A stretch of DNA of 64,000 nucleotides from Sandaracinaceae bacterium (GTDB taxonomy: Bacteria; Myxococcota_A; Polyangia; Polyangiales; JAFGIB01), in assembly GCA_017881055.1 (NCBI GenBank), contig JADGRF010000218.1, positions 23,468 to 87,467 of the forward strand, in the 5' to 3' direction. Within the stretch, counting starts at the first letter, position 1; every line of letters starts with the position of its first letter. Made by a program: the position numbers and the translations under genes. Below the pieces are notes generated by a model. The model was given only the letters and a program-made list of their open reading frames with translations. It made no database searches and had not been told where the DNA came from. Shown in pieces: positions 24,247 to 37,321 of the stretch.

Positions 24247-24918
24247 ATGATCTCCGTCGCCTGCTCCGGTTTCCCCGTGCCCACGAGCACGTATTTTCGA
24301 GAGTTTCGCGCCGTCGAGATCTCCGACACCGAGCTGGGCATACCCGGGGTGGGCACCCGCGACCGCTGGCTGCGCGAAGCGGCCCCGGAGTTCGTGTTCA
24401 CGGTGCTGGCGCCCAAGCAGATCGCGAACGCAGGCTTTGCGCTCGACGCGGAGACCACGCGCGCGCTCGACGAAGTTACGGCCTTTGCCAAGCAGCTGAA
24501 GAGCCGCACCGTGGTGTTCGCTGCGGATCCGAGCTTTCTGCCGACCCGTGCGCACCGCACGCGCATCGCAGCGTTTGCGGAGCACGTGCAGGGCAAGCTG
24601 AAGTCCGCCGTGCTCGATCTGCCCGGTTGGCCGCTCAAGGAGACCGAAGCGGCGCTGAAGAAGGCGAGCAGCTCGATCACGATCGCGTTCGACCCGCTGA
24701 CCGAACAGCCCTCGAGCGTCGGGGACTTCGCGTACGTGCGCCTGCCGGGACCTTCCGGCTACCGCTCGCGCTACGACCCGACTACGCTCGATCGCGTTGT
24801 CGAGTACGGCACGAGCTGCAGCGCCAAGCAGCTGTTCGTGGTGCTGCGCAACATCGATCGCTTCGAGAACGGCAAGTACCTGCAACGACACTTCAATCAC
24901 GCCGACTCAATCACGTAG
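24247..24918 (+). CDS. DUF72 domain protein
   Basis: YFREFRAVEI, WLREAAPEFVFTVLAPKQI; DUF72-like barrel start. Confidence 0.75.
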   Translation: MISVACSGFPVPTSTYFREFRAVEISDTELGIPGVGTRDRWLREAAPEFVFTVLAPKQIANAGFALDAETTRALDEVTAFAKQLKSRTVVFAADPSFLPTRAHRTRIAAFAEHVQGKLKSAVLDLPGWPLKETEAALKKASSSITIAFDPLTEQPSSVGDFAYVRLPGPSGYRSRYDPTTLDRVVEYGTSCSAKQLFVVLRNIDRFENGKYLQRHFNHADSIT

Positions 24919-25854
24919 CGACGTGAGCGCGCGCATGAAGTCGGCCGGCGGCTCTGCGACGAAGCGCAGGCTCTCGCCGGTCGTCGGATGCGTGAAGCCG
25001 AGCACGCGTGCGTGCAGAGCTTGGCGACCGATCAGCTCGCCTGCCGCGCTCGTACGCTCGTCCTTCGACATGCGTCCGTACATCGGGTCGGCGAGGATCG
25101 GAAAGCCGTGGTCCGAGAGATGTACGCGAATCTGATGCGTCCGGCCCGTCTCGAGCGTACAGCGCAGAAAGCTCGTAGCGTGCAGGCGTTCCAGCAGCTG
25201 CACGTGCGTAACCGCACGCTTGCCACGTGTCACGCGCGACGAGAACTTCTTACGGTCACGCGGATGACGTCCGTGCCACGTGTCGAAGGTCAGCGTCGCA
25301 GCCGGATGCCCCTGCACGATCGCCACGTACTCGCGCTCGATCGTGTGCGCCTGAAAGAGCGCAGTCAGGTGCTCGCGCGCCGGCATGGTCTTCGCGATCA
25401 CCATCACACCACTGGTGTCCTTGTCGAGCCGGTGCACGATGCCTGGGCGCTCCGTCGACTCGTGATCCAGATCGGTCAGATCCCGGTGGTAGCGCAGCGC
25501 ATTCACCAGCGTGCCACCCGCATGCCCCGGCGCCGGATGCACCACCATGCCCGCCGCCTTCATGATCACGATCACCTGCTCGTCCTCGAACAGAATCTCG
25601 ATCGGAATGTCCTCAGGAGCTGCAGCTGACGGCGGCGGCGGCAACGGCCGCAAAATCACCCGCTGCCCAACCACAGCCTTGTCGCGCACCCCGGCAACTC
25701 GCCCCTCCACCTCGACGCGCCCCTCGCCAAACAAGCGCTGCACCTGCGACCGCGAAAGCCCCAACCCCTTCCCCGCCAAAACCCGATCCAACCGCTCCCC
25801 CACCTCCGCAGGAAGGATCACAGTCTCAATCGCTTGCTCGTCGTTCTTCGCCAC
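24907..25854 (-). CDS. rluD: RluD-like 23S rRNA pseudouridine synthase
   Basis: S4 domain; GMVVHPAPGHAGGTLVNAL, VHRLDKDTSGVMVIAKT, LETGRTHQIRVH. Confidence 0.9.
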   Translation of the reverse strand: MAKNDEQAIETVILPAEVGERLDRVLAGKGLGLSRSQVQRLFGEGRVEVEGRVAGVRDKAVVGQRVILRPLPPPPSAAAPEDIPIEILFEDEQVIVIMKAAGMVVHPAPGHAGGTLVNALRYHRDLTDLDHESTERPGIVHRLDKDTSGVMVIAKTMPAREHLTALFQAHTIEREYVAIVQGHPAATLTFDTWHGRHPRDRKKFSSRVTRGKRAVTHVQLLERLHATSFLRCTLETGRTHQIRVHLSDHGFPILADPMYGRMSKDERTSAAGELIGRQALHARVLGFTHPTTGESLRFVAEPPADFMRALTSLRD

Positions 25855-25889
25855 TCGATCGTCCCCACGGGATGGGCAAACGTACGGGG

Positions 25890-25999
25890 CGCGATTTTGC
25901 CTCTAGGCGCGAGCGCGCCCACAGCGAGGCGAGGGAGCGTACTCACGTACGTGACCGAGCCGAGTGAGGACGTAAGCCGCGCCTAGAGGCAAAGGCGCG
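25890..25999 (+). repeat. Structured palindromic intergenic element, copy A
   Basis: Perfect 16-nt terminal IR TTTGCCTCTAGGCGCG (25896-25911)/CGCGCCTAGAGGCAAA (25978-25993), outer CGCG/CGCG; core GACGTAAGCCGCG at 25969-25981. Confidence 0.85.
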
Positions 26000-26005
26000 T
26001 CCCGT

Positions 26006-26269
26006 TCACCACATCTTGGAATCGATGTGGGCCTTGGACCGAACCATAATGTCGATGACGGCACGGTCATAGAAGTTCTTGGCATAAAGATCTGCGGTGA
26101 CGCGGCTCTGAAACAGCGCGCGACCCTCTTCCAATTCCTCCGCCATCACTTCGTAGAGGCTGTCGTTGGTGATGCCTTCGACAACTTTTTCCTCGTTGTA
26201 GAGTGAGAGGTCACTCGCGATCGCTCTCGCCAAACGGCGGGCAGCCTCTTCGGTCTCGATCAGCGCCAT
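26006..26269 (-). CDS. Small (87 aa) uncharacterized protein
   Basis: MALIETEEAARRLARAIASDLSLYNEEKVVEGI...; non-repetitive charged, helical sequence. Confidence 0.7.
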   Translation of the reverse strand: MALIETEEAARRLARAIASDLSLYNEEKVVEGITNDSLYEVMAEELEEGRALFQSRVTADLYAKNFYDRAVIDIMVRSKAHIDSKMW

Positions 26270-33712: not shown

Positions 33713-33779
33713 GCGGCGCGCCTTGGGCCCTATCCGCGGCTTACGTCCTCGCTCACGGCTAGGACCCAATTCGCGCCGC
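33713..33779 (-). repeat. Structured palindromic intergenic element, copy B (short form)
   Basis: GCGGCGCG-CC-TTGGGCCCTA ... TAGGACCCAA-TT-CGCGCCGC; core CGCGGCTTACGTC at 33735-33747 is the reverse complement of the core in copies A and C. Confidence 0.8.
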
Positions 33780-36591: not shown

Positions 36592-36744
36592 GCGTCGTGA
36601 TTTGGGTCCTAGTCGCGAGCGCGCCCGCAGCGACCGAGGGAGCCGTACTTCTTGTACGGTGACCAAGGAAGCGCTTGTTTTCGGGTTCGCGAACGCGAAC
36701 CCGCAACCCGACGTAAGCCGCGAATAGGACCCAAAGCGCGGCGC
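36592..36744 (+). repeat. Structured palindromic intergenic element, copy C (long form)
   Basis: Perfect 11-bp IR TTTGGGTCCTA (36601-36611)/TAGGACCCAAA (36725-36735); core GACGTAAGCCGCG at 36710-36722; internal hairpins CCGTAC..GTACGG and GGGTTCGCG-AA-CGCGAACCC. Confidence 0.85.
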
Positions 36745-36745
36745 G

Positions 36746-37321
36746 CTATAGGTTCTTGTTGGCGAAGTCCCAGTTGACGAGCTGATCGAGGAACGTGTCG
36801 GCGTACTTCGGGCGCGCGTTGCGGTAGTCGATGTAATACGCGTGCTCCCAGACGTCGATCGTGAGGATCGGCTTGGCGGCGGTCGTGATGGGCGTCTCGG
36901 CGTTCGGGGTCTTCACGACCTTGAGCTTGCCGCCTTCCTTCACGAGCCAGGCCCAGCCCGAGCCGAACTGCGTGAGCGCAGCCTCGACGAACTGCTTACG
37001 GAACGTGTCGTAGTCGCCGAAGCTGGCGGTGATCTCGGCGGCAATGGCGCCCGTCGGCTGACCGCCGCCCTTGGGCTTCATCGAGTGCCAGTAGAACGTG
37101 TGGTTCCACACCTGTGCGGCGTTATTGAACATCGCGCCCTGCGAGCTCTTGACGATCTCCTCGAGCGACTTGCTCGCTTCCGGCTTGCCGGCGATCAGCT
37201 CGTTGAGCTTGGTCACGTAAGCCTGATGATGCTTGCCGTAGTGAAAGTCGAGGGTCTCGGGGCTGATGTGCGGCGCGAGGGCGTCCTTCGCATACGGCAG
37301 GGTGGGTAGCTCGATGGCCAT
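36746..37321 (-). CDS. sodB: Superoxide dismutase (Fe/Mn)
   Basis: FHYGKHHQAYV, NNAAQVWNHTFYW, DVWEHAYYIDY. Confidence 0.97.
   Translation of the reverse strand: MAIELPTLPYAKDALAPHISPETLDFHYGKHHQAYVTKLNELIAGKPEASKSLEEIVKSSQGAMFNNAAQVWNHTFYWHSMKPKGGGQPTGAIAAEITASFGDYDTFRKQFVEAALTQFGSGWAWLVKEGGKLKVVKTPNAETPITTAAKPILTIDVWEHAYYIDYRNARPKYADTFLDQLVNWDFANKNL

Follow-up and report, generated by a model that had tools for sequence, protein, structure and literature searches.

A dispersed palindromic repeat with a constant core and covarying arms that abuts stop codons in Myxococcota genomes

The window, by which we mean the whole 64,000-nt stretch analysed here (contig C13:23468-87467), comes from a genome of 5.88 Mb in 341 contigs (G000, referred to below as the source genome). 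Copy A of the repeat lies between an 87-aa ORF without a Pfam match and the next gene downstream, which codes for an RluD-type pseudouridine synthase; these flanking genes are as an earlier note on this DNA had described them (Table 1). The note had set the element at 25890-25999, which is the right place, but the full unit is slightly longer (about 122 nt), and its 3′ end touches the stop codon of the ORF (TCA on the + strand, 26006-26008). It forms an imperfect palindrome of 122 nt with 28-nt arms (25884-25911 and 25978-26005) that are 89% complementary. The finer features reported earlier were all found again: a 16-nt perfect pair within the arms (TTTGCCTCTAGGCGCG/CGCGCCTAGAGGCAAA), a 2x2 internal loop, an outer CGCG stem and the 12-nt palindrome TCACGTACGTGA at 25943-25954, where the fold pairs CGTAC with GTACG and not the whole palindrome. 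Folded as RNA, the + strand has a predicted free energy of -85.2 kcal/mol, which in comparison with 200 dinucleotide-shuffled sequences corresponds to z = -9.7.

Table 1. Positions of the repeat copies, their parts and neighbouring genes (window coordinates unless an accession is given)
Feature	Position	Strand	Remarks
Copy A, full palindromic unit	25884..26005	+	better-folding strand, antisense to both flanking genes
5′ arm of P1, copy A	25884..25908	+	varies between copies; pairs with 25981-26005
Conserved core, copy A	25909..25980	+	GCGAGCGCGCCCRCAGC ... P2 ... CGTAC-loop-GTACG ... P2′ ... GAGGACGTAAGCCGC
Apical hairpin P3, copy A	25938..25951	+	CGTAC/GTACG; covaries to TGCAC/GTGCA in other copies
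3′ arm of P1, copy A	25981..26005	+	end touches stop codon
87-aa ORF	26006..26269	-	stop codon abuts copy A
RluD-type pseudouridine synthase	24907..25854	-	next gene downstream
Copy B	33713..33779	-	arms intact, most of core deleted; deletion derivative
Copy C	36592..36744	+	3′ end 1 nt from stop codon of superoxide dismutase gene
Extra palindrome GGGTTCGCGAACGCGAACCC in copy C	36673..36709	+	37 nt, within the 3′ strand
Fe/Mn superoxide dismutase	36746-37321	-	beside copy C
Alphaproteobacterial multicopy long hairpins	NZ_CP005190.1:86183-86293 (L361); loci L363-L379		plasmids of Sphingobium, Shinella, Ensifer, Phyllobacterium and Agrobacterium

Two further copies in the window, B and C, had also been proposed and both proved real. 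The extra palindrome of copy C occurs at the same place in other copies too (L139, L052 at about 1500, L133 and L136), and the copies with this insert probably represent a derived subfamily. Related palindromes of the form GGGATTCGCG...CGCGAATCCC lie near other copies of the element. In one further copy (L024 / L135, G000:C304:29137-29261) the 3′ arm is interrupted by a different palindrome, AGTTGGGGTCGGGGCGCCAACCCCGACTAAAT, which looks like a short REP.

The view that copy A is the founder of a three-member family had to be abandoned, as it is one among about 55 copies in its own genome. BLAST located 40 places with the element. When 23 copies were used to build a covariance model, the number of matches rose to 55, the last two of them weak. 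At least 24 copies are present in each of the genomes of the same genus, and relatives in other families of the order show 75-79% identity over the core. The note had named dozens of intergenic copies in a covariance-model search as the result that would support it, and the many further copies agree with this. Within the class, 290 genomes were sampled and model R1 has matches in 66 of them, representing 43 of 146 genera. A broader model (R2) also detects the element outside the class, in 37 of 284 genomes sampled from other classes of the phylum. When GTDB representatives were scanned with a pattern, the matches listed included Myxococcota-like MAGs and one MAG labelled as Cyanobacteria (G516; L208, G+C 0.51). 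The latter (2.1 Mb) holds 10 copies (L208, L333-L360) with A+T-richer arms (TAACTGCTCACCAGG...CCTGGTGAGCAGTTA), for which either horizontal transfer or a mislabelled bin is possible. Searches of phage, plasmid and IMG/VR sequences gave no match to the element, and an origin from a phage, plasmid or virus was rejected on these grounds. The earlier statement that the repeat belongs to no named family also held, with no Rfam match above the gathering score and no paper containing the core sequences found in a literature text search. The family, found across Myxococcota, was previously unnamed. Tandem duplications (with a period of about 97 nt in G030) were also seen, as were many copies at contig ends (L041, L042, L115, L048), which suggests that the repeat breaks assemblies.

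From the outside inwards, each element consists of the P1 arm, an asymmetric internal loop, inner P1, a near-constant stretch (CGAGCGCGCCCGCAG facing GAGGACGTAAGCCG), P2, a second internal loop and the apical P3 (CGTAC/GTACG). The core CGAGCGCGCCCGCAG...GAGGACGTAAGCC is nearly constant across copies, whereas the arms of different genera are fully different and yet pair, for example TAGTGTGCGAGAGATTTT.../...AAAAGATCCGCACACTA in another genus against GCGTCGCGATTTGGG.../...CCCAAAGCGCGACGC in the genus of the window. That the arms change together, as had been noted for the first three copies, holds for the family as a whole. In 23 copies from the source genome, double changes were found at 26 of 35 pairs, with 147 double-change cells against 41 in shuffles (0 of 500). 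The covariation score was 0.526, whereas controls with a slid structure did not exceed 0.11; 34 diverse copies from the whole class gave 348 double-change cells against 134, all of these being counts that ignore phylogeny. Even the constant core contains a pair that is G-C in 25 copies and C-G in 8, and in P2 a tandem G.A alternates with Watson-Crick pairs.

A constant core between widely differing arms, some of them unique to one copy, might be taken to mean that the core alone is mobile and has inserted into many pre-existing host hairpins, the arms being its target sites. We regard this as very improbable, since within a genus the arms are common to many copies and share recurrent motifs (ATTTG, a G.A mismatch, the asymmetric internal loop), and no arm pair was seen without a core. 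The remaining gene ends of the source genome show no enrichment of a hairpin at the same spot, so that pre-existing hairpins after stop codons were rejected as targets.

Gene context was assessed with a simple codon-usage gene finder that had been checked on the window. Among 54 copies in the source genome, 23 lie between convergent genes, 18 and 9 between unidirectional genes and none between divergent genes, and no copy overlaps a gene. In 43 copies the gene next to the 3′ end of the + strand has its own end towards the element, and in 30 of these the stop codon is at most 9 nt away (0-9 nt, with a mode of 2 nt from the end of the model), while on the 5′ side a gene end is this close in only 1 of 33 (p = 7e-10 between the two sides). 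The same holds in other genera, with 21 of 26 gene ends within 9 nt on the 3′ side and 1 of 18 on the 5′ side (p = 1e-6); anchoring is weaker in the Cyanobacteria-labelled MAG. The abutting gene is on the opposite strand, its template strand being the + strand of the element, while neither the distance nor the direction of the left neighbour is fixed. Ordinary genes make up the neighbours, such as that for superoxide dismutase beside copy C; one tRNA gene and the SRP RNA gene are also flanked, with the element about 13-14 nt past their 3′ ends.

All three stop codons occur beside elements, in the proportions found at other genes (p = 0.44), and orthologues without an element end at the same aligned position. 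The possibility that the element supplies the stop codon was rejected for these reasons. A DNA motif of one triplet does not explain the anchoring, which counts against the mobile reading preferred below.

A second feature with a bearing on function is the difference between the strands. Of the two strands, the + strand has the better fold in 50 of 53 copies from the source genome and in 31 of 33 others (81 of 86 in total). Part of this preference is due to the shared core. In the arms alone (53 distinct pairs, equal alignment penalties), G.T mismatches outnumber A.C mismatches by 71 to 27 (p = 1e-5), and therefore it is the pairing of the + strand that has been under selection, whether in RNA or in single-stranded DNA.

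This asymmetry bears directly on the idea that the repeat is a structured RNA of the host, that is, a hairpin that serves the abutting gene as a transcription terminator or shields its mRNA at the 3′ end, and that was selected for this function and spread secondarily. The very stable fold, the covariation and a position always downstream of a gene end and never between divergent genes, including the sites beside tRNA and SRP RNA 3′ ends, would all agree with it, and a role of this kind has been proposed for REPs in such positions (PMC3733652). The abutting gene would, however, transcribe the - strand, so that the asymmetry argues against a role in its mRNA as a sense-strand 3′-UTR; furthermore, no T-run follows the hairpin, most orthologues manage without the element, and other genes have no hairpin at this place. 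On balance we consider a host RNA of this kind unlikely.

A family of antisense or trans-acting small RNAs, transcribed off the + strand in the direction of the abutting gene and ending at its stop codon, would accommodate the strand preference. The core, being constant in tens of copies, might then represent an RNA module common to them, and the alternation of tandem G.A with Watson-Crick pairs in P2 would also agree with this reading. The variable distance and direction of the left neighbour, however, imply that there is no constant position for a promoter, Rfam offers no match, and a mobile repeat accounts better for the copy number and for the insertion polymorphism, so that we judge this explanation to be less probable still.

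Integron attC sites follow stop codons and are active as a folded strand antisense to the ORF. In both respects the element is similar, and some of its right ends read GTTAGGY. In attC, however, the ends are conserved (R boxes RYYYAAC/GTTRRRY) and the interior is variable, whereas the element lacks R boxes, its ends being variable and its interior constant, and its copies are single and dispersed beside syntenic housekeeping genes with no cassette arrays. An attC-type recombination site, recognised as a bottom-strand hairpin just after a stop codon, is already disfavoured and appears to us very improbable.

Evidence for mobility comes from a comparison with two genomes of the same genus (G001 and G002). 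Among the occupied loci whose orthologous gene was found in either of them, most are without the element there, and yet the stop codons of the orthologues align with those next to an element in the source genome. At the few loci occupied in more than one species the arms differ, those of L068 in the source genome and L093 in G002 being unrelated. No clean empty site at the nucleotide level and no target-site duplication was seen in these comparisons, in which the intergenic DNA of the relatives is too diverged for an exact reading; end logos likewise show no target-site duplication, and the flanks share nothing beyond a GA that is internal to the element.

Of these explanations, we favour, with modest confidence, one in which element A is a copy of a dispersed, non-coding and non-autonomous REP-like mobile hairpin of about 120 nt that acts via single-stranded DNA of the template strand. 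It is supported by the number of copies and their spread through class and phylum, by covariation that extends into the constant core, where one G-C pair is exchanged for C-G, by the insertion polymorphism at orthologous gene ends and the unrelated arms at one locus, and by the gene context, the anchoring of the 3′ side and the strand asymmetry. We infer the single-stranded step and any enzyme from these observations. IS200/IS605 elements have HUH transposases with a one-strand chemistry, which the asymmetry would suit. An enzyme provided in trans may recognise the folded single strand, both core and arms, as HUH tyrosine transposases do for the ends of REP and IS200/IS605 elements, and would join the 3′ end of the hairpin to DNA just outside a stop codon. 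Sites beyond stop codons would harm no gene, so that copies could persist and amplify; an unpaired arm would end mobility, so that compensatory changes would be kept. Any effect on the abutting mRNA, such as termination or 3′ protection, would be secondary. Covariation as deep as that observed is, however, unusual for a merely selfish repeat and would equally fit an RNA function.

A mobilising enzyme was not found among the RAYT and reverse transcriptase candidates. The source genome, a MAG of 94% completeness, has neither a Pfam Y1_Tnp match nor a RAYT. Of 19 relatives with the element 16 have RAYT-like genes, compared with 10 of 19 without it (Fisher p = 0.08). Carriers were judged here by BLAST and R1; with the more sensitive R2, G017 and G018 have one match each in addition. 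These divergent proteins (NCBIfam NF047646) are common in relatives, with up to 51 matches per genome. Despite the suggestive co-occurrence, RAYT was rejected as the mover, as RAYT-like genes were not found in G000, G002 and G030, of which the first two are element-rich, and none of 20 RAYT loci inspected in relatives carries the element. A reverse transcriptase was rejected as well, several carriers being without one. The carriers are MAGs, an assembly type that readily loses multicopy genes, and the absence of an enzyme is therefore not firm. No parent autonomous transposon with the same ends was found among the RAYT and reverse transcriptase candidates surveyed. Five relatives (G004, G007, G008, G010 and G015) encode divergent RAYT-like HUH proteins of 300-370 aa with a long C-terminal part, and several RAYT-like genes have ACCCAGGTTG or ACGTGCCAGGGACATTT repeats upstream.

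Among known systems, the element is of the kind described as palindromic mobile repeats at gene ends, a mobile repeat similar to REPs having the best support. Most REPs follow a coding region, no more than 20 bp from its 3′ end, where the neighbouring ORFs are convergent or unidirectional, and they often supply a TAG stop (PMC3733652). Like REPs and REPINs, the element is extragenic, has a high copy number and is found between convergent or unidirectional genes at the 3′ ends of ORFs. It differs from REPs (GTAG/CGTC) in its size of about 118-122 nt compared to 20-40, in end logos that show no GTAG/CGTC tag, and in being a single long rod with a constant core, freely varying arms and a fixed orientation against the stop codon. 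Linkage to RAYT, a feature of GTAG-type REPs, is missing both in the source genome, with the reservation that this MAG is incomplete, and around the RAYT genes, so that membership in the classical REPs was rejected on size, tag and RAYT linkage. MITEs are similar in being short, non-coding, dispersed and polymorphic for presence, with inverted repeats, but the element has no target-site duplication, its terminal repeats are not conserved between copies, and no parent transposon was found among the candidates surveyed. The RIME repeats of rhizobia, compared by description only, are intergenic palindromic repeats of about 100 nt in tens of copies. By description only, the element also resembles the Bru-RS of Brucella, intergenic palindromic repeats in tens of copies with a size of about 100 nt (PMC2267715).

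One locus in a Myxococcota genome (L144:2262-2356, G001:C47) has, where the source genome has the present element, a hairpin with a different type of core, and its sequence led to multicopy long hairpins in alphaproteobacterial plasmids. These share with the Myxococcota element variable but complementary arms, a constant core and a GTAC apex followed by GTGA, while the core itself differs (CGAGAACCGGCGCGCAGCGTAC...GTACGTGAGCACCGGAAGCGCAG). The gene to the right is mostly on the opposite strand, and in 7 of 12 loci inspected, using independent annotation, the distance from core to stop codon is 93-96 nt; the + strand folds better in 15 of 16. This second family, which a literature search did not find by name, is thus similar in its fixed distance to an opposite-strand stop codon and in its strand preference, both of which lend support to the mobile reading. 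Model R2 finds only some of these hairpins, and weakly (E 3e-5 to 0.1). It is possible, and we suggest it only tentatively, that the two belong to one bacterial superfamily of long mobile hairpins, whose core would be of at least two types, one in Myxococcota and one in Alphaproteobacteria. In it the active form would be the folded template strand and insertion or fixation would be coupled to gene ends, one end always coming to lie immediately beyond a genuine stop codon.

That REPs accumulate around gene ends is an old observation for which no clear reason has been given. The family described here is a much sharper case, as its orientation is fixed and it lies only a few nucleotides from real stop codons, which are of all three types and occur in several genera. 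The parallel family extends the anchoring at gene ends to another phylum, and the folding preference for one strand can be measured, so that how such repeats choose gene ends becomes testable. A covariance model is supplied for annotating the repeats, which may explain many of the contig breaks in Myxococcota assemblies.
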